Source: a virus
DNA length: 64,000 bases
IMG/VR virus record: IMGVR_UViG_3300042463_001805
Coordinates: 33,377-97,376 of that record
Reading direction: 5' to 3' (one strand)
In this document: one piece after another, positions 2,838-53,686 of the stretch
Numbering within the stretch: position 1 is the stretch's first letter
Layout of the letters: every line of letters starts with the position of its first letter
The notes under the pieces: model-generated
Told to the model about the DNA's origin: nothing
Databases searched by the model: none
What the model saw: the letters and a program-made list of their open reading frames with translations, nothing else
Made by a program: the position numbers and the translations under genes

Positions 2838-4874
2838 CTATTTTTTACGTTTTGTTGGTTTTTTTATTTTAACCTCAGTTTTTTTATCTTTTTCATTATA
2901 TGATAAAATAAACTTGGATCCTTTTTCAGGGTTATCGCTAATTACTTTATCGGTAACCGCATCATCAACCCATTTTTGAATGGTTCTTTTTAATATACGA
3001 GCACCAAATCTAGTGTCTGTACCAACAGTTATTATATGTTTTTTTAATGTCTCATCCACTTCTAATTCAAAATCAATTGCAGATACTCTTTCATAAACTT
3101 TTTCAAGTTCTAGATCTACAATTTTTAATAAGTCAGTTTCATTAAGGTCTTTAAAATAAATTATCTCATCAAAACGGTTAATGAATTCAGGTGCAAACTT
3201 TTTGAATAATTCTTTTTCTAAAAGTGATTTTACCTCCTCTTCTTTTTTCTCAACTTTTGAATTTGTTGCAAACCCAACACCGGTACCAAAATCTTGAACT
3301 ACCTTTGTCCCAACGTTAGAAGTCATTAAAATTATACAATTTTTAAAATTAATTTTTCTACCATGACCGTCAGTTAAAAAACCTTCATCTAACATTTGTA
3401 AAAATACATTAAAAATTTCAGGATGTGCCTTTTCTATTTCGTCTAACAATATTACAGAATAAGGTTTATTTTTAATTTTATTTAAAAATGGAGAACCATC
3501 TTCATAACCAACATAACCCGGTGATGTTCCTGTTAATTTTGATGTTGCAATTTTATCTGAAAATTCACTCATATCTAATCTAATAAGTGCGTCTTCGGTA
3601 TTAAACATATGTTTTGCCAATTGTTTTGCTAACTCAGTTTTACCAACACCCGAATTACCAATTAATAATCCACTAAATATTGGTTTTTTAGGGTCGTTTA
3701 ATCCGACCTTATTTCTTTGAATTGATCTTGATATTTTTGCAACAGCATCATCTTGACCAATAACTTTTGTTGATAAAGTATCTTTTAAAGTTTTTAATTG
3801 TTCGGTTTCGTCTGTTGAAATTTTTGATATTGGAATTTTTGTCATTAATGATACAACATCATATACAATATCGTCAGTTACTTCTCTTTTAAATAAATTT
3901 CTATTTTTTTCAAATTCAGCCTTTTCTCTTTCTAAATCATTTAAAACTTTTCTTTCTTTATCTCTAAGATTTGCGGCCTCCTCATATCTTTGACTATTGA
4001 TAACTCTAACCTTTTCTTCTTTGATTTCTTGAGCTTGCCTTTTTAGGTCCTCAATAATCTCAGGTAATTTAATTTCAACTTGAGATCTTGCGCCAACCTC
4101 ATCAATAATATCAAATGCTTTATCAGGAAACTCTCTATCTGTAATATAACGGTCAGCTAACTCAACACATAATTTTAATATATCATCACTATAAGTTACT
4201 TTATGGTGGTTTTCATATCTATCTTTTGAATTTTGAAGTATCTGTAAGGTTTCTTCTTTTGTTGATGGATCAACCATTACTTTTTGAAATCTTCTTTCTA
4301 ATGCTCCGTCCTTTTCAATGTTTTTTCTATACTCTTCAAGTGTAGTTGCACCAATACATTGTAATTCACCACGAGATAATGCCGGTTTAAATATATTTGA
4401 CGCATCCATTGATCCCGATGAATTACCCGCACCAATCATTGTATGTATTTCATCAATAAAAATAATTATATCAGGATTGTTGTATAACTCTTCAATAATT
4501 ACTTTCATTCTTTCTTCAAACTGACCTCTATATTTTGTTCCCGCAACAATTGATGTCATGTCTAATGAAACAATTCTTTTTCCTGATAAATTCTGTGGAC
4601 AATCACCCTCAAATATTTTTTTAGCCAATCCTTCAACTATTGCCGTTTTACCACAACCTGGTTCACCTAAAATAATTGGGTTATTTTTCTTTCTTCTAGA
4701 AAGTATTTGAGCGATTCTATTAATCTCATTTTCTCTACCAACAACAGGATCCAATTTTCCTTCTTCCGCCAGTTTTATAAGGTCTCTTGAAAAGTTATCT
4801 AAAACAGGTGTTTTTGTTTTTGTCTCTGTATTTTTACTTTTAGATTTTTCTGATTCGTCAAATGATTCAATCAT
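2838..4874 (-). CDS. clpC: ClpC-like AAA+ unfoldase lacking the N-terminal domain
   Basis: This is a two-domain HSP100 unfoldase of 678 residues, against roughly 810-850 for cellular ClpC. AAA-1 has Walker A GEPGCGKT (70-77), Walker B FIDEIH (139-144) and the arginine-finger segment GALERRF. A short middle domain contains one UVR motif (about 286-313), which separates ClpC from ClpA and ClpB. AAA-2 has GNSGVGKT (406-413), Walker B ILLDEIE and GARILKR. A VGF tripeptide (533-535) sits where ClpC binds ClpP. The double Clp_N domain is absent; the protein starts with a charged tail running straight into TPVLDNF, a linker reminiscent of Bacteroidota ClpC. It probably works with host ClpP on altered substrates. 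Confidence 0.93.
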   Translation of the reverse strand: MIESFDESEKSKSKNTETKTKTPVLDNFSRDLIKLAEEGKLDPVVGRENEINRIAQILSRRKKNNPIILGEPGCGKTAIVEGLAKKIFEGDCPQNLSGKRIVSLDMTSIVAGTKYRGQFEERMKVIIEELYNNPDIIIFIDEIHTMIGAGNSSGSMDASNIFKPALSRGELQCIGATTLEEYRKNIEKDGALERRFQKVMVDPSTKEETLQILQNSKDRYENHHKVTYSDDILKLCVELADRYITDREFPDKAFDIIDEVGARSQVEIKLPEIIEDLKRQAQEIKEEKVRVINSQRYEEAANLRDKERKVLNDLEREKAEFEKNRNLFKREVTDDIVYDVVSLMTKIPISKISTDETEQLKTLKDTLSTKVIGQDDAVAKISRSIQRNKVGLNDPKKPIFSGLLIGNSGVGKTELAKQLAKHMFNTEDALIRLDMSEFSDKIATSKLTGTSPGYVGYEDGSPFLNKIKNKPYSVILLDEIEKAHPEIFNVFLQMLDEGFLTDGHGRKINFKNCIILMTSNVGTKVVQDFGTGVGFATNSKVEKKEEEVKSLLEKELFKKFAPEFINRFDEIIYFKDLNETDLLKIVDLELEKVYERVSAIDFELEVDETLKKHIITVGTDTRFGARILKRTIQKWVDDAVTDKVISDNPEKGSKFILSYNEKDKKTEVKIKKPTKRKK

Positions 4875-5523: not shown

Positions 5524-6141
5524 ATGAAAAGAATAGTTAGACTAACAGAATCAGATCTTACAAAAATTGTAAGAAGAGTAATAAATGAGCAATATGACGA
5601 TAATTGGTTTGCGGGGATACAGAGTATGGTCGCATCAGTTAACTCAAAATTACCAAAAGGATGCCCAAAATTAAAAGCGATTGGGCCGGATCCACACCCA
5701 ACTTCACCAAATTCAAGAACCGCATGGGTTACTGTGGATTTTAAAAGTTTAGGTAGCTCAACCGATGGTTTATTAATGATGTTTAGTGTTTTGAGACAAA
5801 AAGACGGTGTAGTTACATCTGTTAACCCTACCTTTAGAAACCCTATAAACGACGGATCTGTTGTTTTTGGTTCAATGAAAACGATTGACCCCACTACAAA
5901 AAAATTAGAAGTAGGCCCTGGTGGTCAAATCAGTACAGGTACTTTATTTACGGTTGGGTCTGCATTACAAAAGACTCCTGATAAATCAGTACAACTACTT
6001 GGTTCGGTTTTAAAAGGCCAAAAAGGAAAGAACGATAAAGGACAAATAGTTTATGATTATTCTGCAATACCTACTGAAATTGTTAATTCTTTTAATTCTG
6101 TAATAAAATCATTACATACGATGGTAAAAGCAAAGGCATAA
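5524..6141 (+). CDS. leader-bearing paralogue 1, putative head-packaged internal protein
   Basis: First of three paralogues (205 residues) that begin with almost the same basic amphipathic helix, MKRIVRLTESDLTKIVRR, ending V-I-N-E22/Q23. The (I/L)-x-E pattern matches the T4 gp21 prohead-protease cleavage rule and the likely capsid cleavage site of this phage (L-I-N-E/A). T4 internal proteins carry capsid-targeting leaders of this kind and are injected with the DNA. The mature part starts with a conserved DDNW and a VNSKLPKG stretch and ends with an IP-x2-I-VNSFNSVIKSLHT helix. I recognise no enzymatic motif. Packaging and injection are inferred. No signal peptide is present, since the leader is too charged. 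Confidence 0.75.
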   Translation: MKRIVRLTESDLTKIVRRVINEQYDDNWFAGIQSMVASVNSKLPKGCPKLKAIGPDPHPTSPNSRTAWVTVDFKSLGSSTDGLLMMFSVLRQKDGVVTSVNPTFRNPINDGSVVFGSMKTIDPTTKKLEVGPGGQISTGTLFTVGSALQKTPDKSVQLLGSVLKGQKGKNDKGQIVYDYSAIPTEIVNSFNSVIKSLHTMVKAKA

Positions 6142-6161
6142 TAAATAAATAAATAAATAAA
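6142..6161 (+). repeat. TAAA/AAAT microsatellite between paralogues 1 and 2
   Basis: The spacer consists of about four consecutive AAAT units. A very similar run lies before paralogue 3 (7431-7446), so it probably spread with the duplicated gene. Confidence 0.6.
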
Positions 6162-6782
6162 ATGAAAAGAATAGTTAGATTAACAGAATCAGATCTTACA
6201 AGAATTGTAAGAAGAGTAATAAATGAGCAATATGACGATAATTGGGCATCCGCATTACAACGTATAGTTGATGATGTAAATTCAAAGCTACCGGCAAATA
6301 GTGCAAGACTTATTGCATATCAACCTAACATTACAAAACAACCTGGCGGTACAGAACAAATCAATGCGTCTATAGGTATAGATATGAAAAATTTAGGTAT
6401 GGGCGGTTCTGGTTTACTTTTCCGTTTTGGGGTTTTAAAAATGAAAGACGGAGTTGTTCAGGCCGTCTCAGTAACATTAACAAATCCTATAGGTGATAAA
6501 CAAGTGGCAAGAGCTCAAAAAACTTTAGATGTACAAACTAAAAAATTAAAATATCCTGTTAGTCCGGATTTTAATTATACACCAATATATGAGATTGCAA
6601 AGGCTCTTGAGACTAGTGGAAACCCAAAACTTACAATATTAGGTAACGCTTTATATGGAAGAAAAAGTAGAAATACTAAAACAAATGAAGTAACTGATTT
6701 TTCACAAATACCAGGAAAAATTTTAACAGGAATTAATTCGGTTAAAAAAGCAATACAGACATTTATACCTGTAAATGCATAA
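6162..6782 (+). CDS. leader-bearing paralogue 2, putative head-packaged internal protein
   Basis: Second paralogue (206 residues). The first 84 bases differ from paralogue 1 at only two positions (bases 19 and 38 of the gene), whereas the mature parts have diverged strongly. The leader ends V-I-N-E22/Q23 and is followed by the same YDDNW. The C-terminus keeps the family pattern FSQIPGKILTGINSVKKAIQT. It lies 20 bases downstream of paralogue 1 with no separate TATTTAT motif, so the two are probably co-transcribed. A strong hairpin shared with the convergent secreted-protein gene ends transcription. Function unknown; packaging into the head is inferred from the leader. Confidence 0.75.
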   Translation: MKRIVRLTESDLTRIVRRVINEQYDDNWASALQRIVDDVNSKLPANSARLIAYQPNITKQPGGTEQINASIGIDMKNLGMGGSGLLFRFGVLKMKDGVVQAVSVTLTNPIGDKQVARAQKTLDVQTKKLKYPVSPDFNYTPIYEIAKALETSGNPKLTILGNALYGRKSRNTKTNEVTDFSQIPGKILTGINSVKKAIQTFIPVNA

Positions 6783-6798
6783 CAAAAAATTAAATAAC

Positions 6799-6829
6799 AA
6801 AAAAAGGAGGATTTGATCCTCCTTTTTTA
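6799..6829. terminator. bidirectional terminator between convergent genes
   Basis: AAAAAAGGAGGA-TTTGA-TCCTCCTTTTTT is a perfect stem flanked by A and T runs, so it can end transcription from both strands. Confidence 0.85.
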
Positions 6830-6842
6830 TTTTATAGTAATA

Positions 6843-7328
6843 TTAGTTTACTGGTATGTACTCAACTAAAATAGTTACATTTTCACTTTCATCATAAAAA
6901 TAACGACAAGGACTTTTTGACATATCTGAGGTGTAAACAAAATTCATATCATATTCTTGAATTATTGATCCATTTTTCCACTTGTATCCTGTGTAAACAA
7001 ATTTAATTGAGTTTGTTTCTTTTTTGAAATTAAATACTTGTCTTTGTAATGCTACTAAATCATTTTCATCAATAACTATAAAATCTTGATGACTTACCTC
7101 ATCTATCAACACCATTACCTTTTCGTTTTTTGGTGTTACTATTGTGTCGTAACTTTTGTTTTTAATGTTGTAAAAACTTTGTCTTCCTTTTGCTTTATAC
7201 ATTACTTGACCACTTGAAAGGAACTCTATTTTTAAATTCCACGGACCTTCATCACTACTATATTCTTGTGGTTGTGAAAAAGAGATAAAACTTAAAACTG
7301 TAAGTAAGAAGATCAATAGTGTTTTCAT
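6843..7328 (-). CDS. secreted protein, paralogue A
   Basis: This 161-residue protein begins with a signal peptide (MKTLLIFLLTVLSFISFSQ) of flavobacterial type. The mature part is about 140 residues, mostly beta-strand by eye (VMYKAKGRQSF, FVYTGYKWKNG, CRYFYDE) and ending VTILVEYIPVN. It is a clear paralogue of the protein at 8087-8560. No enzymatic motif and only one cysteine are seen. It carries a host-type promoter upstream and is convergent with leader-bearing paralogue 2. A periplasmic or surface function during infection, such as exclusion of other phages, is possible, but nothing in the sequence proves it. Confidence 0.7.
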   Translation of the reverse strand: MKTLLIFLLTVLSFISFSQPQEYSSDEGPWNLKIEFLSSGQVMYKAKGRQSFYNIKNKSYDTIVTPKNEKVMVLIDEVSHQDFIVIDENDLVALQRQVFNFKKETNSIKFVYTGYKWKNGSIIQEYDMNFVYTSDMSKSPCRYFYDESENVTILVEYIPVN

Positions 7329-7360
7329 GTGGTTTATTTTTTAGGTTAATAATTATATTA

Positions 7361-7392
7361 CAAATATAATAATATTTTTTTAATCTACAAAT
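7361..7392 (-). promoter_or_regulatory. Bacteroidota-type promoter for secreted paralogue A
   Basis: On the minus strand TTTG (within 7388-7392) and TATATTTG (7361-7368) are separated by 19 bases. The downstream leader is conserved with that of secreted paralogue B. Confidence 0.65.
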
Positions 7393-7411
7393 TTTTTTTG
7401 TGTTTTTAATA

Positions 7412-7419
7412 TATTTATT
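7412..7419 (+). promoter_or_regulatory. TATTTATT late-promoter-like motif
   Basis: It lies 34 bases before the ATG at 7454. The spacer contains an AAAT microsatellite like the one before paralogue 2. Confidence 0.45.
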
Positions 7420-7453
7420 AGTTAGACATCAAATAAATAAATAAATTAAAAGT

Positions 7454-8062
7454 ATGAAAAGAATAGTTAGACTAACAGAATCAGATCTTACAAGAATTGT
7501 AAGAAGAGTATTAAACGAACAATATAATGATAGTTATACAGGGGCGCTAAAACAACTTGTTGATAACGTTAATTCAATGTTACCTAAAGGTGGGTATAAG
7601 TTAGCGTTCGGTGGACCAAATGAAAGAAAAATTAACAATTGTCCTATGGGTAAACAATATTCATCATATATAAGTGTAGTTAATTCGGCAGGTCAACCTT
7701 TGGGTAAATCTTCAGTAACTTTAGCTATGTTTACAGTGACAACTAATTGTAAAGTTGAGGGGCAAGTAGGGTTATCTAGCGTTACTATATTTGGTTTAGG
7801 AGACACCCAAATTGGTAATTATAGTAAAAACTCTCAGCAAAAAGGAGGGACAGCAATTCAAGGAGGTGCTTTATATCAAGCGGCTACAAGTTATATAAAA
7901 AGTGGAGACAAAGGTTTACAACAACTTGGTTATGCTCTTAGAGGTACAATATCCACTAATGCTCAAGGAGTTAAAACGGATTATTCAAAAATACCTACTA
8001 CCTTACTTACCGGTCTTAATTCCGCAAAAAATTCAATAGAAACTTTAATAAAAACAGTATAA
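7454..8062 (+). CDS. leader-bearing paralogue 3, putative head-packaged internal protein
   Basis: Third paralogue (202 residues). The leader is nearly identical in DNA to that of copies 1 and 2 over the first 57 bases and ends V-L-N-E22/Q23, again an (I/L)-x-E site. The mature part retains the family landmarks VNSMLPKGGYKL near residue 40 and YSKIPTTLLTGLNSAKNSIETL at the C-terminus; the middle is unlike the other copies. Unlike them it has two cysteines (NNCPMG, TTNCKVE). It has its own TATTTATT motif and a bidirectional terminator shared with the convergent secreted paralogue B. No known domain was recognised. Confidence 0.75.
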   Translation: MKRIVRLTESDLTRIVRRVLNEQYNDSYTGALKQLVDNVNSMLPKGGYKLAFGGPNERKINNCPMGKQYSSYISVVNSAGQPLGKSSVTLAMFTVTTNCKVEGQVGLSSVTIFGLGDTQIGNYSKNSQQKGGTAIQGGALYQAATSYIKSGDKGLQQLGYALRGTISTNAQGVKTDYSKIPTTLLTGLNSAKNSIETLIKTV

Positions 8063-8090
8063 AAAAAGGGAGTCTAACTCCCTTTTTTAT
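8063..8090. terminator. bidirectional terminator
   Basis: AAAAAAAGGGAG-TCTAA-CTCCCTTTTTT lies between the stop of leader-bearing paralogue 3 and the stop of secreted paralogue B, with A and T runs on both sides. Confidence 0.85.
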
Positions 8091-8560
8091 TTTACAACAA
8101 TATACTCAATTAATACTGTTAGATTTTCAATCTTATCGTAAAAATACTTACAAGGATTTTTAGACAAATTTTTTGTGTAAATGAAATCAATATCATATTC
8201 TTGTTTAATCAAACCACCCTCCCATTGGTATCCTGTGTAATAGAATTTATCTTCATTTGGTTTTTGTTCAAACCCATATATTAATCTTTGTAGAACAGTT
8301 ATATCATTTTCTTGAATCACAATAAAATCATTTTGAGAATATCTGTCAACTAAGATATTAATATTCTCATCAATCATTGTCACCGAACTATCAACCGAAT
8401 TAGATTTTATGTCCTCAAATGATAACTTACCTTTAGCTTTATACATTATTTGACCTTTGGATTTAAATTTTAATTTGTAATCCCATATATCTTCATTTTC
8501 TTGTGAAAAGGAAAAAGAAGAAATTAAAAAAAGAAAAGTTAATTTAAAAAAGGTTTTCAT
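8087..8560 (-). CDS. secreted protein, paralogue B
   Basis: This 157-residue protein is a paralogue of the one at 6843-7328. Shared landmarks are a signal peptide ending SSFSFSQ, the strand GQIMYKAKGKLSFEDIK, FIVIQENDITVLQR, FYTGYQWEGG, and NPCKYFYD running into an ILVEYIPV-like end (VLIEYIVVK). The pair probably arose by duplication of a unit consisting of one leader-bearing gene and one secreted gene in convergent orientation. No enzymatic motif is seen. Export is strongly supported; function is unknown. Confidence 0.7.
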   Translation of the reverse strand: MKTFFKLTFLFLISSFSFSQENEDIWDYKLKFKSKGQIMYKAKGKLSFEDIKSNSVDSSVTMIDENINILVDRYSQNDFIVIQENDITVLQRLIYGFEQKPNEDKFYYTGYQWEGGLIKQEYDIDFIYTKNLSKNPCKYFYDKIENLTVLIEYIVVK

Positions 8561-11181: not shown

Positions 11182-11591
11182 TTTTAGTATATGTAAACGA
11201 ATTAGGACCAAACTATAAAGGAGATAATATATATGAATTTATATTTTCAGACTTGGATGATGTTTGGGGTGAAGATTGGGATGCCGAACCAGCATCAGGA
11301 AAACCGTTACCGCCTAATTTTGATTACATAAAAAAAGTTGGGGTTTTAAAAAATTCAGAAATTGATTTAAACTTAATTCAAAACTCTGATTTTTTTGGTG
11401 TTTATGATGCAATTGACGGTGTCATATCTTTAGCTTGGGAAAGATCAGATAGTGATGAAATTTTAATACACAAAAGAAAAAGATTAGTTTTTCAATACGG
11501 AGATACCGTAGAAACAGTAGAAAATAAATTATACGAAAGAGACATCGTATTAAAATGGGAAAAAAACTTAGTTCAAGATGAAACATATTAA
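11178..11591 (+). CDS. conserved-looking protein of unknown function in the terminase operon
   Basis: A 137-residue acidic protein starting MILVYVNELGPNYKGDNIYEF. It overlaps the gene before it by ATGA and the one after it by 14 bases, so the three are translationally coupled. It contains many aromatic and acidic residues (DLDDVWGEDWD) and no cysteine, membrane segment or known motif. Its position just before terminase might suggest a small-terminase or DNA-packaging accessory role, but no HTH or coiled-coil oligomerisation pattern supports that. Function unknown. Confidence 0.6.
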   Translation: MILVYVNELGPNYKGDNIYEFIFSDLDDVWGEDWDAEPASGKPLPPNFDYIKKVGVLKNSEIDLNLIQNSDFFGVYDAIDGVISLAWERSDSDEILIHKRKRLVFQYGDTVETVENKLYERDIVLKWEKNLVQDETY

Positions 11592-12183: not shown

Positions 12184-13968
12184 ATGTCGTTAACAAAAGA
12201 ACAAGCGTTATTAGAATATGCAAAATGTGTAAATGATACTCCTTACGCATTAAAAACATATCTACAAACATACGACAATACACAATCCAAATACGTACCG
12301 TTAGAATTATTTAATGATCAAGTTACCCTTGTAAAAGATTACGATACATGTGAAGAAAATATTGCATTAAAGTATCGTCAGGCGGGCGTGTCTACTGTGA
12401 CTTCTGCATGGGCATCAAAAAGATTAGTTTTCGCTCGTAAAGAAAAACCTGAAAAAATCCTTATAATTGCCAACAAAATGGATACTGCCGTGGAAATGGC
12501 AAATAAAGTTCGTGCGTTTGTTGACCAATGGCCAAAATGGATGGGTGTTGGGTTTTCTTCTGAAAAAAACTCACAGAGACACTTTAAATTAACTAATGGT
12601 TGTGAGGTTAAGGCAGTTGCAACATCAAAAGATGCCTTACGTGGTTATACACCAACAATATTGATATTTGATGAGGCCGCGTACATCAATGCGGACGAGG
12701 ACTTTTGGTCTGCTTGTATGGCGTCCCTTTCAACAGGAGGTAAAGTAATTGTAATATCAACACCAAACGGATTTGATCCAATTTATTATTCTATTTACAG
12801 TCAGGCAGTTAAAGGAATGAATGACTTTAGAATAACTGAAATGTATTGGTTTAGAGATCCAAGATACTCTAAAGATTTACGACTAATTAAATGTGATGAT
12901 ATTGTTCATTACATGTTAAATAGAGGTGATTATGTTGATACAGATATCACAATTGATTATGGTAATATAAAAGTTAGTGAAAGAAACTTTGAACAGATAA
13001 AACAAAAAATAGAAAACGAAGGGTATAAGGCTTATAGTTCTTGGTTTGAGGCTATGGCCAAAAAATTAAAGTTTGATAAGAGAAAGATTTCACAAGAGTT
13101 GGAATGTAATTTTTTAGGTTCGGGGGATAATGTTATACCTGCTGAAACTATGAAAAAAATTAAAGAAAAACATATTAAAGAACCCGAAAATAAATTTATG
13201 GGTGGTGCTCTTTGGCAATGGAAAGAACCTATTGTCGGCCACAGATATATTATGGGGGTTGACGTTTCAAGAGGAGATAGTGAAGATTTTACAACATTTA
13301 CAATTATTGATTTTGATGAAAGAGAACAGGTTTTAGAATATTTAGGAAAAGTCCCACCTGATGTTGTAGCAGAAATTGCATATAAATGGGCAACCATGTA
13401 TAATGCGTTTATTGTTACTGATATAACTGGAGGTATGGGTGTTGCAACATCAAGAAAATTACAGGAACTTGGGTATAAAAATTTATATGTGGATGGAGTT
13501 AATCCGGCTGATAAATGGAAATGGGATCCAAAATCACAAGATAAAATACCTGGAATTAATTTTAACTCAAAAAGAGTTCAAATAATCGCAGCTTTTGAGG
13601 AATCATTGAGACATGGTTTTGGTGTTAGATCACAAAGATTATTTAATGAGTTAAACACATTTGTTTATGTAAATGGAAGACCCGATCACCAAAAGGGACA
13701 ACATGATGATTTAATCATGGCATTAGCTATGGCGATATATGTTGGGGAAAATTCTTTCGCCCAATTAGAAAAGGCAACCGAACACGCTAAAGCAATGTTG
13801 AATTCATGGTCCACAGAAAAAAAAGAATTTAGAGAATCCCACCAAAATTTTAATCCAGGCGTTCCTGTAAGTTACATGGATAGAATGAATATGGGTATGA
13901 GTAGAAGTTCCTTAACACAAAGTGATTACCAAAACTATTTATGGTTATTCGGAGGAAAAAGAGTTTAA
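12184..13968 (+). CDS. terL: large terminase subunit (T4 gp17-like)
   Basis: This 594-residue packaging motor has an N-terminal ATPase and a C-terminal nuclease. The ATPase has a degenerate Walker A KYRQAGVST (63-71) and Walker B ILIFDEAAY (159-167), with Asp163 and Glu164. The RNase H-like nuclease acidic residues are visible as GVDVSRGD (Asp360), VTDITGG (Asp413) and HDDLIMA (508-509). It translocates DNA into the prohead through the portal and cuts concatemers. Length and motif order fit the gp17 family. No intein or frameshift is seen. It is translated directly after the DUF3008-like gene and precedes the portal gene by 38 bases. Confidence 0.95.
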   Translation: MSLTKEQALLEYAKCVNDTPYALKTYLQTYDNTQSKYVPLELFNDQVTLVKDYDTCEENIALKYRQAGVSTVTSAWASKRLVFARKEKPEKILIIANKMDTAVEMANKVRAFVDQWPKWMGVGFSSEKNSQRHFKLTNGCEVKAVATSKDALRGYTPTILIFDEAAYINADEDFWSACMASLSTGGKVIVISTPNGFDPIYYSIYSQAVKGMNDFRITEMYWFRDPRYSKDLRLIKCDDIVHYMLNRGDYVDTDITIDYGNIKVSERNFEQIKQKIENEGYKAYSSWFEAMAKKLKFDKRKISQELECNFLGSGDNVIPAETMKKIKEKHIKEPENKFMGGALWQWKEPIVGHRYIMGVDVSRGDSEDFTTFTIIDFDEREQVLEYLGKVPPDVVAEIAYKWATMYNAFIVTDITGGMGVATSRKLQELGYKNLYVDGVNPADKWKWDPKSQDKIPGINFNSKRVQIIAAFEESLRHGFGVRSQRLFNELNTFVYVNGRPDHQKGQHDDLIMALAMAIYVGENSFAQLEKATEHAKAMLNSWSTEKKEFRESHQNFNPGVPVSYMDRMNMGMSRSSLTQSDYQNYLWLFGGKRV

Positions 13969-14006: not shown

Positions 14007-15824
14007 ATGGCACAAGAAAAATATACAGTTTGGCAGAGGTTGGGTAAGGTTTTTGGACCTAACGCAACTTTAGATCAACAGGCACCAGTATTTAAATTTG
14101 ATAAAAAAGAATTATTAAAAACTACAGATAAAAAAGAATTTGAGATTGAAAAGTTACAAGCTCAACAATCATTATATATTGGGCAACAATGGCAAAAAGT
14201 TGAAAGTAACCTGTACCAACAAGCGGTCTATTACGAACCAACAAGAATGGCGTCGTACTATGATTACGAATCAATGGAATATACTCCTGAAATTTCAGCG
14301 GCTTTAGACATTTATGCGGAAGAATCAACAACGCCAGATCAAGACGGATTAATATTAAAAGTTTATTCTGAATCAAAAAGAATAAAACAAGTTTTAACGG
14401 ATCTTTTTACAAACAAATTGGATATAAATACTAACTTACCTATGTGGACAAGAAATACATGTAAGTTTGGTGATAATTTTGTGTATCTAAAATTGGATCC
14501 CGAAAAAGGGATAGTTGGGTGTCAGCAATTACCAAATATTCAAATTGAAAGATTAGAAAAAGGTATGAGATTTCAACCAGACAAATATTCTCAAGAAATG
14601 GAGAACGATGCACTTAAATTTGTTTGGAAAGAAAAAAACATGGAATTTAACACTTGGGAAGTTGGTCATTTTAGAATTTTAGGTGACGATAGAAAACTTC
14701 CTTACGGTACATCTATGTTAGAAAAAGCAAGACGTATTTGGAAACAACTACTATTATGTGAAGACGCTATGTTAATTTATCGTGTATCAAGAGCACCCGA
14801 AAGAAGAGTATTTAAAGTGTTTGTTGGTAACATGGACGATAAAGATGTTGATGCATATGTACAAAAAGTGGCAAATAAATTCAAAAGAGATCAAATTGTA
14901 GATTCAAAAACAGGTAACGTTGATATGAGATACAATCAAATGGCGGTTGATCAAGACTTCTTTATCCCTGTACGTGACGCTTCGGCACCTGAACCCGTAA
15001 CAACATTGGCGGGAGCATCAAACTTAGCTGAAATTGCAGATATTGAATATATTCAAAAGAAACTTGTTACTGCACTTAGAATACCAAAGGCTTATTTAGG
15101 TTTTGAAGAAGCTGTTGGTGATGGTAAAAACTTATCATTATTAGACATAAGATTTGCTAGAACAATTAATAGAATTCAAAAATCTATGATTGCAGAATTA
15201 AATAAAATAGCAATTATTCATTTATTTTTATTAGGGTTTGAAGACGAATTAACGAACTTTACTTTATCATTGAATAATCCGTCTAAACAAGGAGAACTAT
15301 TATCTTTAGAAATTTGGAAAGAAAAAATTACATTATATAAAGACGCAACTGCTGAGATTGCAAAATCATTAGCACCTGTTTCTGCTTCTTGGGCTAAAAA
15401 ACACATATTAGGATTTTCCGATGAAGAAATTAGATTGGACATCCAACAACAAAGAGTTGAACGTGCGGTTTATGCTGAATTAGAAAAAACTGCAGAAGTT
15501 ATCACTAAAACAGGTTTATTTGATAATATTGATAAATTATACGGTAAAAAAGAAGGTGAAGCAGCTGGAGCAGCTGGAGGTGATGCCGCGGCAGGTGGAG
15601 CACCACCGGCAGGAGGAGACATGGGTGGAGGAGCACCTCCGCCACCACCACCATCAGGCGGTGCGGAAGGAGGAGGCGTCACTCCCGAAAGATTTGTAAG
15701 AAATGACTTAGATTTAATTTTGGAAGAGACGTTATTTAACGAATCAAATAATTTAGATTTATCAAAAGGTAGAAATTCTTTAGTGGAAATTGATCAAAAA
15801 TTAAAAAATTTGATTGATAAGTAA
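14007..15824 (+). CDS. portal protein (T4 gp20-like)
   Basis: A 605-residue portal subunit forming the dodecameric ring through which DNA enters and leaves the head. The family core is recognisable: YEPTRMASYYDYESMEYTPE, ALDIYAEEST, FGDNFVYLKLDPEKG, and the stem region RVSRAPERRVFKVFVGN, ending with DISLxDIRFAR-like helices (LSLLDIRFARTINRIQKSM). Residues about 515-558 are an Ala/Gly/Pro low-complexity stretch (GDMGGGAPPPPPP) not typical of gp20; it resembles the repeats of the protein at 9775. The extreme C-terminus (LDLILEETLFNES) is acidic. It lies between terminase and the downstream head genes. Confidence 0.92.
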   Translation: MAQEKYTVWQRLGKVFGPNATLDQQAPVFKFDKKELLKTTDKKEFEIEKLQAQQSLYIGQQWQKVESNLYQQAVYYEPTRMASYYDYESMEYTPEISAALDIYAEESTTPDQDGLILKVYSESKRIKQVLTDLFTNKLDINTNLPMWTRNTCKFGDNFVYLKLDPEKGIVGCQQLPNIQIERLEKGMRFQPDKYSQEMENDALKFVWKEKNMEFNTWEVGHFRILGDDRKLPYGTSMLEKARRIWKQLLLCEDAMLIYRVSRAPERRVFKVFVGNMDDKDVDAYVQKVANKFKRDQIVDSKTGNVDMRYNQMAVDQDFFIPVRDASAPEPVTTLAGASNLAEIADIEYIQKKLVTALRIPKAYLGFEEAVGDGKNLSLLDIRFARTINRIQKSMIAELNKIAIIHLFLLGFEDELTNFTLSLNNPSKQGELLSLEIWKEKITLYKDATAEIAKSLAPVSASWAKKHILGFSDEEIRLDIQQQRVERAVYAELEKTAEVITKTGLFDNIDKLYGKKEGEAAGAAGGDAAAGGAPPAGGDMGGGAPPPPPPSGGAEGGGVTPERFVRNDLDLILEETLFNESNNLDLSKGRNSLVEIDQKLKNLIDK

Positions 15825-17593: not shown

Positions 17594-18298
17594 ATGAAAA
17601 TATTAGGACCTAAAGATACGGGTAAAGGAATACTTGTTGAGTGGGATGCTGGAATCATTAACCCAAATGAGTATAGAAACAGTCAAGTTTTAAAAGAATC
17701 GTATGGCCAACTAGACCACTCAAAACCATTTGTTTTTTACGCTACTTTACAAAAATATGGAGTACCAAATAGAAATGGTAGAATTTATCCTGAAAAAATA
17801 TTAAAAAGAGAAACTGAAAAGTATAAAGAGATGATCAATAGAGGGATGTCTATTTCTGAACTTAATCACCCAGAATCTTCTCTGATTGATTTAGATAGAG
17901 TTGCTCACCTTATTACTGATGTGTGGTGGGAAGATAACGTATTGATGGGTAAAATTAAATTATTGACAACACCAGGATTTCATGAAAGAGGGATTGTTTC
18001 ATCAAAAGGTGACATTGCGGCAAACATGATGAGACAAGGTGTGACTATGGGTGTTTCTTCTCGTGGTGTAGGATCTTTAGTAAAAAAAGGAGAACAAAAT
18101 GAAGTGCAGGATGATTTTGAATTAATTTGTTTTGATTTGGTTTCTTCACCATCAACACCTGGTGCATATCTTTACCTTAATAAAGAAGATAGACCTAAAT
18201 ACGAAGAAAATTTAACAGAGCATCAAGAAATAGAATCAAATCCTTTGAGTAAATCTGTTGACTTAATGAAAAGATTATCCGATTATTTGGATAAATAA
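17594..18298 (+). CDS. prohead core protease (T4 gp21-like)
   Basis: A 234-residue serine protease that matures the prohead. The family motifs are clear: GVPNRNGRIYPEKIL near residue 56, the catalytic His in ISELNHPESSLID (His92), and the nucleophile region TMGVSSRGVGS (Ser155/Ser156). In T4-like phages it cleaves capsid, scaffold and internal proteins after (I/L)-x-E. Here the capsid protein (L-I-N-E60/A61) and the short leaders of several small proteins offer matching sites. It sits immediately before a small DUF4494-like gene and the scaffold, the usual order. Confidence 0.93.
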   Translation: MKILGPKDTGKGILVEWDAGIINPNEYRNSQVLKESYGQLDHSKPFVFYATLQKYGVPNRNGRIYPEKILKRETEKYKEMINRGMSISELNHPESSLIDLDRVAHLITDVWWEDNVLMGKIKLLTTPGFHERGIVSSKGDIAANMMRQGVTMGVSSRGVGSLVKKGEQNEVQDDFELICFDLVSSPSTPGAYLYLNKEDRPKYEENLTEHQEIESNPLSKSVDLMKRLSDYLDK

Positions 18299-18671: not shown

Positions 18672-20312
18672 ATGAGTATGAATGAAAAATCGGTAGTAGA
18701 AGACGCTTTATTACAAATTAAGGCGGTTGAAAATGCTATCAGTGAAAATGCAAAAGGAATACTTGCTTCTACTATGAAGGAAGAAATCAGTGAATTAGTA
18801 AGGGAATCTCTTGGAGGTTCAAAAAAAAGAAGTCTACGTGAACAAGAAGAACAAGGCCAAGAAGTTGGTGTAGAAGACGAAGAAGTAGACGTAGAAGAAC
18901 CTGTTGATGGTATGGAAGGTGAGGAAGTTGTTGTTGATGACGAAACGGAAGTTGTTGATGATGGTGAAGAATTACCTGTAGAACCTGAAATGGGAGATAA
19001 TCTAGGCGGTGAATTACCACCATTAGATATGACGCAATCATCAATTGGTGACGTAATCAAAGTTTTTAAATTAATGGGTGACGAAGATGGTATTATTGTT
19101 AAAAAAGACGAAAAAGGTATCCATTTATCTGACCCAAAAAATGAAACAGAATATCTAATACAAATGGATGGTGACACCGAAAATCCACAAAATATGATGG
19201 AAAATTCAATGATAGATGCAATTAGATCAGTCAGACCAAATCAATATGAAAATTATGGATCTGAATTTAATGAGCAAGAAGAAACCGGTTTCGGGTACGA
19301 TGAGTATGGTGATGAGGGTGAAGACTACAGTGATTCTTATTTTGATGAATTAGAAGAAGAGTACGGTATGGAAGAACAAGATTTTCCTATGGAAGAGTAC
19401 GGTATGGAAGAACAAGATTTTCCTATGGAAGAGTATGGTATGGAAGAACAAGATTTTCCTATGGAAGAACAAGATTTTCCTATGGAAGAACAAGATTTTC
19501 CTATGGAAGAGTACGGTATGGAGGAAAACGTTTACGAGATAGATCAAGAAGCTCTTGAGTCTGTTTTGGAATCTTTTAAAGCTAAAGGACTTGGAATGGG
19601 TAAACCAGGTAATGGTTTCTCAAAAATGTCAGTTAACGATAAAGGTTTCAAAGAAGATAGAAAAAGTGGAGGTAAAGGTTTAACAGGTAAAGGTCCTAAA
19701 TTCAAATATCCTAAAATCAAACACGGAGTAACTGAAAATGAATTTGAAGAAGAAGAATTCAATGAGTGGGAAGACGAAACAAACGAAGAATTAATTGATA
19801 CTAAAGAACAACCGGAAACTACTGAAGCCTCAAGAACTTTAGGTAATGGTAAATATTGGGGTAGAAAAGGTTTACCTAAACCAAGAACCGCACCTAGACA
19901 CCTTAGAGTAGAATCAGTAAACGGAGAGTTAAACTTGTTGAGAGAAAAAAATGAAGAATACAAAAAAGCGTTAGATTTCTTTAGAACAAAACTTAATGAA
20001 GTTGCGGTATTTAATTCTAACTTAGCGTATTCTACACGTTTGTTTACAGAACACTCAACAACAAAACAAGAAAAGATTAATATTCTTAGAAGATTTGACT
20101 CAGTTGAATCATTAAAAGAATCTAAAAATCTTTACCAATCAATCAAAAGAGAACTTGACGGAAAAGGTACTCAACCTGTGGTTACTGAATCAATTCAGAG
20201 AAAAGTAACTAAAACTCCACAATCAGGATCAGCAACAAATTTGATTGAAAGTAAAACTTATGAAAATCCACAATTTATGAGAATTAAGGATTTAATGACA
20301 AAAATAAACTAA
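18672..20312 (+). CDS. prohead scaffold/core protein (gp22-like)
   Basis: A 546-residue, extremely acidic, Met/Gln-rich protein in the scaffold position between protease and major capsid protein. Residues about 230-283 are tandem repeats of EEQDFPM (7 residues) and EEYGM (5 residues). The C-terminal 150 residues are a helical region with LREKNEEYKKALDFFRTKL, AYSTRLFTEHSTTKQEK, and an end NPQFMRIKDLMTKIN, typical of gp22-like cores of T4-like phages. The scaffold directs prohead assembly and is degraded by the protease; several (L/I/V)-x-E sites (for example ELVRES) are present. Homology in the acidic half is poor, so the call rests on position, composition and C-terminus. Confidence 0.8.
   Translation: MSMNEKSVVEDALLQIKAVENAISENAKGILASTMKEEISELVRESLGGSKKRSLREQEEQGQEVGVEDEEVDVEEPVDGMEGEEVVVDDETEVVDDGEELPVEPEMGDNLGGELPPLDMTQSSIGDVIKVFKLMGDEDGIIVKKDEKGIHLSDPKNETEYLIQMDGDTENPQNMMENSMIDAIRSVRPNQYENYGSEFNEQEETGFGYDEYGDEGEDYSDSYFDELEEEYGMEEQDFPMEEYGMEEQDFPMEEYGMEEQDFPMEEQDFPMEEQDFPMEEYGMEENVYEIDQEALESVLESFKAKGLGMGKPGNGFSKMSVNDKGFKEDRKSGGKGLTGKGPKFKYPKIKHGVTENEFEEEEFNEWEDETNEELIDTKEQPETTEASRTLGNGKYWGRKGLPKPRTAPRHLRVESVNGELNLLREKNEEYKKALDFFRTKLNEVAVFNSNLAYSTRLFTEHSTTKQEKINILRRFDSVESLKESKNLYQSIKRELDGKGTQPVVTESIQRKVTKTPQSGSATNLIESKTYENPQFMRIKDLMTKIN
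19363..19520 (+). repeat. in-frame 21-base and 15-base tandem repeats in the scaffold gene
   Basis: Units GAAGAACAAGATTTTCCTATG and GAAGAGTACGGTATG alternate, then the 21-base unit repeats alone. Copies are nearly identical, indicating recent slippage or expansion. Confidence 0.85.
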
Positions 20313-20389: not shown

Positions 20390-22198
20390 ATGGGAGCATT
20401 ATTAGAATCAGGTCTTGTTGGTAACATCGGTCTTAAGCACTTGAAAGTTATCAAAGAAGATACAATTAACAAATGGGATAGATTAGGATTCCTAGACGGT
20501 CTTAAAGGACACGTTAAAGAGAACATGGCACAATTATATGAAAACCAAGCGTCTCACCTAATTAACGAAGCAGCATCTACTGACAGTTCAGGTTCATTTG
20601 AAACTGTAGTATTTCCTATCGTTAGAAGAGTATTCTCTAAATTATTAGCAAATGATTTAGTATCTGTACAAGCAATGAACTTACCAATCGGTAAATTGTT
20701 CTACTTTGTACCTAAAATTCAAGGTTATAACTCAGCTGATACCGCTGCAGGAACAAACCACTTCGCACCAATTGGTTCGGCAAACTATAACGCGGCTGAT
20801 GGTACAGGTTATGATGGTGCTGACGCTTACGCTAAAAATCTTTATGATTTATTTTATGAAGGTGCTGAGGCGGCATTAGATCCTCCAGGATTATTTGACT
20901 ATTCTAAAGGTACATGGACTGCAGTTACAGCAACTACAACAATCCAAGTTTGGTCAAATGGATCATTAGTTGATTCATTGGCTCCAACAGGTGTTCAAAG
21001 AAAACTTCTTGTTAAAATGTGTGGTTTTTATGATAATGGTGTTGGTAAATTAATCGGACCTGATGGATCAGAGGTTGATAGTGAGACTTTCTTGTCTGAC
21101 TTAAAAATTATCAGATCAACAGGTTTGAGTATTGCTGAAGGTAGTGCTTGTTCTGTTCCTACAGCAACTCCATTGTTGTTTAGAGTCGTTACTCAACAAT
21201 ACGGTAAAGGTATTGTTTCTCCTACATATACACAAACACCAACAACATTCCCTAACGGAAATGGTGGATCTTATGATCAAGTTTGTGATCAAAACGGATG
21301 TATCTATTTAGAAGTTGATCTTTCTTGTCCTGTATGTGCTGATTGTAACGCATCATCTTTAGATGGTTATACAGGAGCAACAATCACTTCAGGTTCTTCG
21401 GGTACTTCTTTTGTAGCTGTATTTAGAAGATATGCTGAATTAGAATTTGAAGATAAAATTGGTGAAGTATCTTTTGACCTTGAGTCAGTTACTGTATCAG
21501 TTACAGAAAGAAAACTAAGAGCACAATGGTCACCTGAATTAGCACAAGACGTTTCTGCATTCCATAACATTGACGCTGAGGCTGAATTAACAGCATTATT
21601 GTCTGAGCAAGTGGCAGCAGAAATTGATAGAGAAATCTTGAGAGACCTTAGAAAAGGTGCAGCTTGGAACCTAAGATGGGATTACAACGGATGGAGAAGA
21701 ATTCCAGGAAACATGACTTATACTCAAAAAGATTGGAATCAAACTTTGATCACAGCAATTAACCAATTGTCAGCACAAATCCACAAATCTACATTGAGAG
21801 GTGGGGCTAACTGGATTGTTGTATCTTCTGAAGTTTCTGCTATCTTTGATGACCTAGAGTACTTCCACGTATCTAACGCTTCTCCGGAGCAAGATCAGTA
21901 CAACATGGGTATTGAAAGAGTTGGTACATTAGCAGGTCGTTACCAAGTGTATAGAGATCCATACTTCCCAGCTAACCAAATCCTTATTGGACACAAAGGT
22001 TCATCTTTGTTAGATACAGGATATGTTTACGCTCCGTATGTACCTCTACAATTAACACCTACAATGTATAACCCATTCAACTTTACACCTATCAAAGGTA
22101 TCATGACCAGATACGCTAAGAAAATGGTTAACAACCGTTTCTATGGTAGAATCACAGTTGATGGAGTTAGAACATTTGACTTACAAGAATTGAGATAA
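20390..22198 (+). CDS. major capsid protein (T4 gp23-like)
   Basis: A 602-residue shell subunit. The N-terminal delta region (1-60) ends SHLINE60/A61ASTDSSG, matching the (I/L)-x-E prohead-protease rule and the position of T4 gp23 cleavage (after residue 65). It is followed by the family landmarks FPIVRRVFSKLLANDLVSVQAMNLP and GKLFYF. The C-terminal half contains ERKLRAQWSPELAQDV, GANWIVVSSEV and YARYAKKMVNNRFYG-type elements. An inserted segment around 297-321 is cysteine-rich (DQNGC, LSCPVCADC), unusual for a capsid. The gene uses more C-ending codons than its neighbours, as expected for a very highly expressed protein. A strong terminator follows. Confidence 0.93.
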   Translation: MGALLESGLVGNIGLKHLKVIKEDTINKWDRLGFLDGLKGHVKENMAQLYENQASHLINEAASTDSSGSFETVVFPIVRRVFSKLLANDLVSVQAMNLPIGKLFYFVPKIQGYNSADTAAGTNHFAPIGSANYNAADGTGYDGADAYAKNLYDLFYEGAEAALDPPGLFDYSKGTWTAVTATTTIQVWSNGSLVDSLAPTGVQRKLLVKMCGFYDNGVGKLIGPDGSEVDSETFLSDLKIIRSTGLSIAEGSACSVPTATPLLFRVVTQQYGKGIVSPTYTQTPTTFPNGNGGSYDQVCDQNGCIYLEVDLSCPVCADCNASSLDGYTGATITSGSSGTSFVAVFRRYAELEFEDKIGEVSFDLESVTVSVTERKLRAQWSPELAQDVSAFHNIDAEAELTALLSEQVAAEIDREILRDLRKGAAWNLRWDYNGWRRIPGNMTYTQKDWNQTLITAINQLSAQIHKSTLRGGANWIVVSSEVSAIFDDLEYFHVSNASPEQDQYNMGIERVGTLAGRYQVYRDPYFPANQILIGHKGSSLLDTGYVYAPYVPLQLTPTMYNPFNFTPIKGIMTRYAKKMVNNRFYGRITVDGVRTFDLQELR

Positions 22199-24946: not shown

Positions 24947-25657
24947 ATGAATATTAATTTAATTGTTAAAAACATATTGAAAGAGGCAAATTCTGACAGA
25001 TATGCAGGTTATTATAATGGACCATTAACAATGGGTGAAATTGATTGGGAAAAATCCTCTTTAGGTCCTTTTACAAATAAAGTTTCAAAATTTTTTAATG
25101 CTGAGCTAGAGTATGATAGTTATGATGGTTCTTTGGACTCACATAAAAAAGATAGAAAAAAATTAGAAACAAAATCTCGTAAAATTTCTAAATACAATAA
25201 AAAACATCCTCAAGCAAATGATGAAGATGGTGGAATTATTAATCAAACACCAGGTAAAGGTAAAAGAATTGTTCCTGTTAATGAATGGGTTGAATTAGAT
25301 AAAATACCATTAAATGAAGATTTAGCCGTTTGGTTTGGAAAAAAGAAAAAGCCAAAAGGATCGTCACAACCAAAAGGGCCGTGGGTGGATATATGTAGAA
25401 AAGTTGATGGTAAACATCCTCCTTGTGGTAGAAGTGACACTAGTAAAGGTGCGTATCCTAAATGTAGAGCCGCTGGTGTTGCTGGCAAAATGTCTGATTC
25501 ACAAAAAAGATCTGCATGTCAACAAAAAAGAAGAGCGGAGAAAAAAGATACTCAGTCAGGTAAGGGGCAAAAACCTGTAATGACCTCTTATAAAACAAAA
25601 AAGACTCAAAAAGAGTCTTTAGATATCATTGTAAGAAATATTTTATCAGGTCTTTAA
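24947..25657 (+). CDS. leader-bearing basic protein with DUF5872-like C-terminal module
   Basis: This 236-residue protein begins with the short helix MNINLIVKNILKE13/A14, a hydrophobic-x-E site like those expected for the prohead protease. The C-terminal half is basic with conserved cysteines: PWVDICRKVDGKHPPCGRSD, KGAYPKCRAAGVAGKMS and RSACQQKRRAEKK. This arrangement resembles the module I know as DUF5872, found in phages and large DNA viruses, perhaps DNA-binding. The protein ends in a second short helix, IIVRNILSGL, that echoes the N-terminal leader. A packaged, DNA-associated virion protein is inferred. Its last four bases overlap the convergent gene at 25654. Confidence 0.65.
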   Translation: MNINLIVKNILKEANSDRYAGYYNGPLTMGEIDWEKSSLGPFTNKVSKFFNAELEYDSYDGSLDSHKKDRKKLETKSRKISKYNKKHPQANDEDGGIINQTPGKGKRIVPVNEWVELDKIPLNEDLAVWFGKKKKPKGSSQPKGPWVDICRKVDGKHPPCGRSDTSKGAYPKCRAAGVAGKMSDSQKRSACQQKRRAEKKDTQSGKGQKPVMTSYKTKKTQKESLDIIVRNILSGL

Positions 25658-26097
25658 CAATATGGTGGTGAACATCTTCTTTTACCGTCCAGTCCTTTAA
25701 TTTTTCCTTTACAAACTTGTACACCGTGACCATTACTATATGCACTTGGAAATACATCATATCTTGATTTAGCCGCCGCTTTACCTCTAGCACATAATTT
25801 AGTTCCCGTTTTTTTACGACCTTCTTCAATCATATCTTCTTCATAATCACTACCACCTTCCATTTCATTTTTTAAAAAATCAAAAACTTGGTCCATATTA
25901 TTTTTAGCTTCAGAGATATGGTCTTGGGCCCAATCATGTCCGTTTTCTAAAATAGACTCAATTTCATCTTGATCCATATCCAATAACATTTCACACTGTC
26001 TCTTCATTTGTTCAAGATTTGAAAAGAACATATATCTACTTGAATGTTTTTTTTCTTCTTCTCTTAATACTCTTTTTATTATTCTACTGATATTCAT
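25654..26097 (-). CDS. leader-bearing small protein with Cys/Lys-rich C-terminus
   Basis: A 147-residue protein with N-terminal helix MNISRIIKRVLRE13/E14, closely similar in style to the leader of the convergent gene at 24947 and again ending in a hydrophobic-x-E site. The middle is acidic and helical (MDQDEIESILENGHDW). The C-terminal 50 residues form a basic cysteine-containing module, KLCARGKAAAKSRYDVFPSAYSNGHG followed by VCKG and RRCSPPYC; I have the impression that similar modules recur in phage virion proteins but cannot name the family. The gene heads toward the tail genes on the minus strand. Packaging is inferred from the leader. Confidence 0.65.
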   Translation of the reverse strand: MNISRIIKRVLREEEKKHSSRYMFFSNLEQMKRQCEMLLDMDQDEIESILENGHDWAQDHISEAKNNMDQVFDFLKNEMEGGSDYEEDMIEEGRKKTGTKLCARGKAAAKSRYDVFPSAYSNGHGVQVCKGKIKGLDGKRRCSPPYC

Positions 26098-53287: not shown

Positions 53288-53686
53288 TTATATATTTTCT
53301 TCGTTATCAAACTTTGCGTTTATTATAACCCTTTCCATAGAACGATCTCCCATTGGGTTATAGTTTGGTCTTACTTCAATAAATTTATCCATTGTTGGTT
53401 TATATGTAAAGATTTTATCTAATCTAAATAATCTCCAACCAGGTAAAAAGTTTCCTTTATTTTTTGCACTCCATGAGGATCCCTCTTGTTCCCAAGCTCT
53501 TAAAACTAAATTTCCTTTTTTACTGTAACCTAAACATACTGGTTCAATAGTTCTAAGTCCTTTACCACCGTTGTCATCACCATCATAATAAATAATAGTT
53601 ACAGACTTCCTTTTTATTGAGTCTTGAACATCTCCTAAAGACGCAGCTTCAGATATTACATATTTTAAACTATCTAATAGTTTCAT
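53288..53686 (-). CDS. WYL-like small protein with a leader-type N-terminus
   Basis: A 132-residue protein whose body resembles a WYL domain: VTIIYYDGDDNGGKGLRTIE, PVCLGYSKKGNLVLRAWEQE and PGWRLFRLDKIFTYKPT, the strand pattern used by WYL regulators to bind nucleic acid or nucleotide ligands. There is no HTH. The N-terminus MKLLDSLKYVISE13/A14A ends in an I-x-E site followed by AAS, very like the capsid cleavage site (I-N-E/AAS). A packaged ligand-sensing or nucleic-acid-binding protein is a reasonable guess. It overlaps the next gene by four bases. Confidence 0.6.
   Translation of the reverse strand: MKLLDSLKYVISEAASLGDVQDSIKRKSVTIIYYDGDDNGGKGLRTIEPVCLGYSKKGNLVLRAWEQEGSSWSAKNKGNFLPGWRLFRLDKIFTYKPTMDKFIEVRPNYNPMGDRSMERVIINAKFDNEENI

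Follow-up and report, generated by a model that had tools for sequence, protein, structure and literature searches.

What is the function of a short N-terminal sequence shared by three paralogous proteins of an uncultured T4-like virus, and why does it recur in front of quite different proteins in other viruses? The DNA analysed here (the window) is a stretch of 64 kb at the end of a virus record of 97,376 bases (IMG/VR record IMGVR_UViG_3300042463_001805). On its plus strand, three open reading frames (ORFs; 5524-6141, 6162-6782, and 7454-8062) encode proteins of 205, 206, and 202 amino acid residues that begin with almost the same leader of 22 residues. From sequence comparison and by analogy with phage T4, we propose, with a probability of roughly 0.78, that this leader and others like it are capsid-targeting propeptides, which would direct proteins into the forming head and would be removed there by the prohead protease. 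In our best reading, they function like the capsid-targeting sequences (CTS) of the T4 internal proteins; homology to the T4 sequences is not claimed.

The long leader in the window and in other viral contigs

The three paralogues begin with MKRIVRLTESDLT[KR]IVRRV[IL]NE followed by QY, and residues 1-24 vary only at positions 14 (K or R) and 20 (I or L). The initial annotation of the window had described a leader ending in (I/L)-x-E22/Q23 on these proteins, and both the ORFs and the sequences are as it stated. Over the whole length, the other two proteins are 44% and 37% identical to paralogue 1 (5524). The leaders occupy positions 5524..5589, 6162..6227, and 7454..7519, and the bodies behind them positions 5590..6141, 6228..6782, and 7520..8062 (all on the plus strand). 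No confident Pfam or PHROG match was found for the three bodies: paralogue 1 had no Pfam match up to E 1 and no PHROG match, paralogue 2 had no Pfam match and a single PHROG match at E 0.17, and paralogue 3 had Pfam matches only at E 0.14-0.15, below the cut-off. In the predicted model of 6162, which was based on a six-sequence alignment, residues 1-30 form a helix of low predicted local distance difference test score (pLDDT 52-60 in 10-residue blocks), and the other blocks score 79-92 except for the last (63). A weakly placed leader in front of a confident body was counted in favour of the capsid-targeting reading. A fold search of the PDB with this model gave no match at E 0.001 or better among the 1087 listed. 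Outside the window, positions 6464-6871 of the same 97,376-base record contain a fourth long leader, of divergent sequence, and another record (G042) encodes a protein identical to 5524.

To find the leader elsewhere, we ran the DNA pattern AGAYTNACNGAATCNGAYYT, which codes for RLTESDL, against IMG/VR, with the same pattern reversed as the control. It occurred in at least 119 stretches, and the reversed pattern gave seven matches in total; chance occurrence was rejected on this basis. The stretches hold 143 matches, of which 131 start no later than residue 11 of an ORF at least 60 residues long; the other 12, which lie away from the start or on shorter ORFs, were dropped. By eye, seven of the 12 are not leaders; the other five are, but their ORFs are truncated or very short, or the start is an internal one. 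Most translated matches read MK(K/R)xxRLTESDL from residue 1, mostly on short ORFs with differing bodies, and up to five were seen on one 15-kb contig. A host gene family as the source of the leader was rejected, because the strict N-terminal pattern had two matches in 257 Gb of bacterial and archaeal genomes, both on contigs of metagenome-assembled genomes (MAGs), one of 3195 bases assigned to Alphaproteobacteria and one assigned to Prevotella (L132 and L133).

After removal of redundancy, 119 of the 131 leaders remained, and 118 of them have a hydrophobic-x-Glu ending ([ILVM]xE). It lies at residues 20-22 in 101 leaders and one to six residues later in 17, and it is absent from one; by eye, the offset in nearly all of the 17 is four residues, or one helical turn. 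In the class of 101, conservation amounts to 1.1-4.7 bits per position through residue 23 and to less than 0.4 bits from residue 24 onward (Glu at position 22 was fixed by the way in which the class was selected).

Leaders as exchangeable modules

We also searched without any motif for N-termini common to ORFs with unrelated bodies, comparing the leader-phage loci with random viral loci. The control loci have 1447 ORFs, of which 1340 remain without repeats, and the body test could be applied to the 1168 of sufficient length. In the leader-phage loci, 583 of 1915 ORFs share their N-terminus with ORFs of unrelated body, as do 35 of the 1168 control ORFs. Among pairs of ORFs sharing an N-terminus, unrelated and related bodies stood at 29462:2485 in the leader-phage loci and at 21:177 in the control loci, which is the fairer comparison because the leader-phage loci are related to one another and were selected for the leader. 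Relatedness accounts for part of the excess over the controls, and the shared N-termini include ordinary ones (signal peptides, a methyltransferase start, and a short domain of unknown function).

The leaders fall into several types, labelled here T1 (the long leader), T1b (the long leader plus one turn), T2 (MKKFIIxExEKxRILxMHxx..yLxE), T3 (short, MNLQExIRRILREE), type T4 (a label, not the phage; MNRSYSKIRHIQEANLRLExRxLxE), T5 (..LLESTMGNVKPLIxE), T6 (..KYLFNYKxGxxISEQ), and T7 (MKIIITESQYxKL), the weakest type. When one representative of each body family was taken, [ILVM]xE was present in residues 9-38 of 32 of 34 proteins with T2, 31 of 32 with T3, 20 of 20 with T1b, 13 of 13 with type T4, 9 of 9 with T5, 7 of 7 with T6, and 31 of 39 with T7.

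If this ending is a cut site, then leaders should be swapped exactly there, and exchange was indeed observed at (I/L)xE. For example, the members of one body family carry T1, T2, type T4, and T1 leaders, every one of which ends in (I/L)xE. Strict leader patterns identified 524 non-redundant leader ORFs, which fall into 287 body families, and in 12 of the 54 families with at least two members, the ones that can be tested, more than one leader type is present (on visual inspection, an internal Met within a longer leader accounts for about two of the 12). The leaders are therefore exchangeable modules: several unrelated types, alike in their ending, precede hundreds of unrelated bodies, and the leader of a given body family can differ from phage to phage. 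The gp21-type site proposed in the initial annotation gains support from this modular exchange with its junction at (I/L)xE. In another body family with varied N-termini, a second conserved junction is apparent by eye, with LxE before AEYxGRKxQLGKI (L068:874, L070:4651, L108:6195, L115:2357, L277:7584, and L309:5673).

The same ending precedes other bodies in the window. The protein at 24947 begins with the short leader MNINLIVKNILKE/A (24947..24985, plus strand), the minus-strand ORF 25654-26097 with MNISRIIKRVLRE/E (26059..26097), and the minus-strand ORF 53288-53686 with MKLLDSLKYVISE/A (53648..53686); the first two are of the T3 kind. These three leaders and the capsid site LINE60/A61 had also been pointed out in the initial annotation and are present as described. 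In the family of the 24947 protein, [ILV]xE stands before the body in 64 of 64 non-redundant relatives although the leader length varies from 8 to 22 residues; the third residue before the putative cut (P3) is Ile, Leu, or Val, and the residue after it (P1') is Ala in 46 of the 64. This protein had no match in cultured phages at 1e-5. The site is likewise present in 50 of 50 non-redundant members of the 25654 family, whose leaders are either short (MKNLDRIIKRVIKE/) or, in 5 of 46 listed forms, long (MKKVIRLTESDLTRLVKRVLSE/) with the same body behind. For these two families we used the best 80 of 548 and the best 80 of 513 loci, respectively, plus the loci already sampled. For the 53288 family all 64 loci were used, and the site is found in 34 of 34 non-redundant members, a conservation partly explained by descent because the 34 are close relatives. 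All 61 non-redundant capsid proteins have L[IL]xE[AT] at the equivalent position, with Ala at P1' in nearly all.

The strict patterns mark 10 of the 108 ORFs of this record; in two other records, of 334 kb and 304 kb, they mark 17 of 411 and 25 of 363 ORFs, respectively. They mark none of 1447 control-locus ORFs and none of 2595 shuffled N-termini. Because the patterns were written after inspection of leader N-termini, the counts for G000 lack independence, but no control locus contributed to the patterns. They miss the 53288 leader and the fourth long leader, and further candidates are visible by eye. The earlier figure of at least six head-packaged proteins would therefore be conservative.

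Protease, head genes, and cargo

A gp21-type prohead protease, the presumed cutter, is encoded in the window at 17594..18298 on the plus strand (phrog_207, 2.3e-44). Its sole match in a search of the PDB was the T4 prohead protease 5jbl (E 3.6e-15). The motifs ELNHP and GVSSRG are found in both the window protease and T4 gp21, and the crystallised 5jbl chain reads ELNAP and GVASRG; their His and Ser would therefore be the catalytic residues, swapped for Ala in the crystal. That this genome encodes a protease sharing the His and Ser motifs with T4 gp21 strengthens the earlier reading of the leader ending as a gp21-type site.

According to profile matches, the window has a T4-like set of head genes, all on the plus strand. 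In addition to the protease, it comprises the large terminase subunit of T4 type (12184..13968; PF03237, 5.2e-12), a gp20-type portal (14007..15824; PF07230, 1.8e-77), and a gp23-type major capsid protein, whose mature part is encoded at 20570..22198 (PF07068, 2.1e-73) behind a presumed propeptide of residues 1-60 (20390..20569), with its site kept in capsid relatives. The ORF at 18672..20312 is presumed to encode the scaffold protein from its position between the protease and capsid genes, and has no confident family match. The closest capsid proteins of cultured phages are those of Microcystis phage Mel-JY01 (43% identity), Flavobacterium phage immuto (42%), and Rhodothermus phage RM378 (36%), with about 55% of the query covered. 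Judged from relatives, carriers of the RLTESDL leader may infect Bacteroidetes.

We then examined the co-occurrence of leader and protease in 46 leader-bearing records of at least 59 kb from the 119 loci, a set that was not dereplicated (G011 and G040 overlap), plus four control records. The protease gp21 was found in 30 of the 46 (in two pieces in G010) and gp23 in 28, and all 28 records with gp23 also have gp21. Neither gene was found in any of the four control records, which came from the reversed pattern or from false positives. Among random viral records (50 of 120 control loci), four of 50 have gp21, as do three of the 16 that are at least 59 kb long. The initial annotation had suggested looking for the leader in related phages together with gp21; the leader turned out to be widespread, with gp21 in every one of the 28 gp23-bearing records.

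What the leaders carry was examined by a Pfam scan of 147 proteins, the longest of 275 leader-protein representatives less one ORF of the window. Matches were to 28 families in all, with the M23 peptidase in two proteins and NUDIX, GNAT, LysM, two lysozyme families, SET, DHH, and an ADP-ribosyltransferase domain in one protein each. Some of these could be traced to individual proteins, namely M23 and lysozyme in L262, LysM in L114 (type T4 leader), SET and DHH in L304 (T7 leader), and lysozyme and LysM in L326 (T7-like leader). This record itself has a PAP2-type protein and a peptidoglycan-binding protein with leader-like N-termini. Judged from such matches, some of the cargo is probably enzymatic and would suit entry, host takeover, or counter-defence; most of it, including the three paralogues, has no assigned function.

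Several other features of this record were observed. The PAP2-superfamily protein with the leader-like N-terminus is encoded at L004:5394-6002 on the minus strand (2.9e-07). Two large proteins encoded to the left of the window (L005:1712-5029, 1105 residues, and L005:5112-7814, 900 residues) share a leader-like N-terminus, MKKELISEISRIH..I[IL][KN]E, and the former has a weak sugar/protein-kinase match at residues 298-354. In the window, ORF 11578-12180 begins with MKHINPKIAILLHEGFSISTLEK; the same N-terminus occurs on eight ORFs with mutually unmatched bodies and may be another kind of leader. ORFs 6843-7328 and 8087-8560, both on the minus strand, appear by eye to encode paralogous signal-peptide proteins and are convergent with the leader genes 6162 and 7454, respectively; the region 6162-8560 is probably a duplicated unit of a leader gene and a signal-peptide gene. 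A ClpC-like double AAA+ ATPase gene (2838-4874, minus strand) adjoins a gene for a small protein with a UVR motif (PF02151; 5050-5415, plus strand), a pair that we take to resemble ClpC with a McsA-like partner.

Alternative explanations and comparison with known systems

Several observations weigh against capsid targeting and cleavage. The motif [ILVM]xE is common in residues 9-38 anyway, being found in 513 of 1340 control ORFs and in 788 of 1571 leader-phage ORFs outside the shared-N-terminus clusters; the motif alone therefore proves little, and it is its fixed place that carries weight. The P1' residues behind the long leader (n=117; Gln 28, Asn 21, Ser 15, and Glu 14) are unlike the mostly Ala P1' of the capsid and 24947 proteins, so that one protease must accept both. 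Amphipathicity is unclear for the 24947 and 53288 leaders, which were equalled by 17.5% and 5.2% of shuffles, and the 53288 leader, whose helix has a net charge of -1, is not basic; the leader of T4 itself is likewise not clearly amphipathic (15% of shuffles equal). Sixteen of the 46 leader-bearing records lack both gp21 and gp23. That these are fragments fits the finding that no HK97-type capsid gene was found in them either, and in one of them (G011) the leaders are shifted by a constant distance relative to those of the protease-encoding record G040. The RLTESDL pattern occurred in none of the four gp21-positive random records, which would confine the leader to part of the T4-like phages. 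Furthermore, the co-occurrence of leader and gp21 is required by the hypothesis, yet it is equally expected from common descent within one T4-like clade. In cultured phages, tblastn with a 23-residue consensus of the RLTESDL leader gave no match at E 10, and the 28-residue leader of the window gave only matches at E 4 or worse, a negative of some weight because a leader of comparable length, where present, is detected by this search at E 5e-8. Finally, tagged proteins are so numerous (up to the 25 of 363 ORFs mentioned above) that packaging them all into one head is strained.

The alternative that survives best is that the proteins are packaged and cut but act within the head, in scaffolding, DNA condensation, or decoration, and are not delivered. 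The 24947 protein would fit such a structural part, as it is encoded a few kb from the capsid gene and its family keeps the site without exception. We nevertheless consider this explanation unlikely, since some leader proteins match enzyme families (M23 peptidase, lysozyme, NUDIX, GNAT, SET, and ADP-ribosyltransferase) and the bodies (287 families among 524 ORFs) vary greatly from phage to phage, unlike structural parts.

Less probable still is that the leaders dock elsewhere, in a phage-made compartment or on a host partner, with the Glu ending due to another cause and nothing cut. The P1' residues and the large number of tagged proteins would be in keeping with this, as would the leader genes of G043, which lie mostly away from the head and tail genes. 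It leaves aside, however, that unrelated leader types have a common ending at which exchange occurs, and that in all 61 capsid sequences this ending stands before the mature part.

It is very improbable that the shared N-terminus has no function as protein and is simply a DNA cassette that recombination or gene conversion has spread. The leader DNA of the three paralogues does differ at just 2-4 of 66 nucleotides in pairwise comparison, so the mutual identity of these three leaders is partly due to recent copying. In other phages, however, synonymous codons vary: Ser10 is encoded in 187 ORFs by TCA (127), TCT (39), TCG (14), TCC (5), and AGT (2), a count biased by the fetching pattern, which fixed some bases and disfavoured AGY. 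Conservation is thus at the protein level, and leader types of different DNA share the ending. As for secretion signals, the leaders are N-terminal, short, and partly hydrophobic, but we reject this identity because the long and 25654 leaders are charged amphipathic helices without a hydrophobic core and the signal-peptide-like N-termini of these phages fall in a separate cluster.

We therefore retain capsid targeting with cleavage as the preferred reading. By analogy with T4, the leader would bind to the prohead core during assembly and thereby bring its body inside. Cleavage by the gp21-type protease would then follow after the Glu of (I/L/V)-x-E, a site identified by comparison, and the mature body would stay in the head and might enter the host with the DNA. 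Injection of most of the head-loaded proteins into the host seems moderately probable. More tentative, at somewhat below even chances, is a general loading code in which interchangeable leader types serve as addresses on the prohead core with a common protease ending, and any protein that gains one becomes virion cargo; the types might address different places or times of head assembly. If the preferred reading is correct, a short sequence rule would predict which proteins are head-carried, and perhaps delivered first, in uncultured T4-like phages. Hundreds of anonymous phage proteins could then be ranked as candidate effectors, and new tags would be available for loading foreign proteins into phage heads. 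If the loading code also holds, one virion would carry dozens of different delivered proteins, and its cargo could be read from sequence alone.

The closest functional parallel is phage T4, whose cleavage rule is the best description of the leader ending. The T4 prohead core contains IPI, IPII, IPIII, and Alt, whose N-terminal peptides are cut off by gp21, and gp21 also removes the first 65 residues of gp23 (PMC9958956). IPI is described as injected and as protecting the DNA, and IPIII as needed on one host strain and acting in the cytoplasm (PMC3012670, PMC9391042); the head-carried proteins of T4 thus include the counter-defence factors IPI and IPIII and the takeover enzyme Alt (PMC3012670, PMC9391042, PMC5512222). 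In the T4 record, ipII and ipIII begin with MKTYQEFIAE/A and ipI has ITE19/A, with sites at residues 19, 10, and 10 (ipI, ipII, and ipIII). The T4 internal proteins and those of the window have in common a short N-terminal leader ending in (I/L)xE, a gp21-type protease, and one kind of leader on different bodies; the capsid protein, which is cut too in T4, has a matching site here. On the other hand, by eye the window leader resembles the T4 CTS (MKTYQEFIAE) only in the MK start and the ending, and the Pfam and PHROG matches of the paralogues revealed no body homology to the T4 internal proteins (this is not a direct comparison with the T4 proteins). In addition, there are at least seven leader types here and many more tagged proteins per genome. 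We do not claim membership in the T4 CTS system by descent, because neither leader nor body resembles that of T4.

In giant phages of the SPN3US/phiKZ type, excerpts describe several head proteins that are cut after Glu (A-x-E or S-x-E) by a prohead protease, some of which enter the host (PMC5694885, PMC10052503). Most of the propeptides given there are longer than 100 residues, with two of 20 and 24, and those excerpts describe no interchangeable leader set. In contrast, the P3 residues of the 24947 family and of the 101-member class of long leaders are Ile, Leu, or Val, and the protease matches the T4-type family. The kinds of enzyme found among the leader proteins recall T4 Alt and the polyvalent proteins, which are predicted to be injected with the DNA (PMC5512222); one of the 147 leader proteins matches the ADP-ribosyltransferase domain of that class. 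Polyvalent proteins are large and multidomain, whereas the leader proteins are mostly small and are defined by the leader and not by domains. In searches of an open-licence library, we found no description of the RLTESDL leader or of a set of interchangeable short leaders.

Phages immuto and RM378 are cultured T4-like relatives. In immuto (MW353175.1), gp20, a prohead protease, and gp23 are annotated, and four proteins (at 1803, 103806, 117631, and 118632) carry a leader of its own, similar to MENFDLKKFLVENKLTxNSxLLKE, which differs from RLTESDL. A further N-terminus, MKKQILSEQFxRMQxLAGIITE, is found in this phage at 25061 and 111675. As a cultured relative with a repeated leader of its own, immuto makes the idea testable now.

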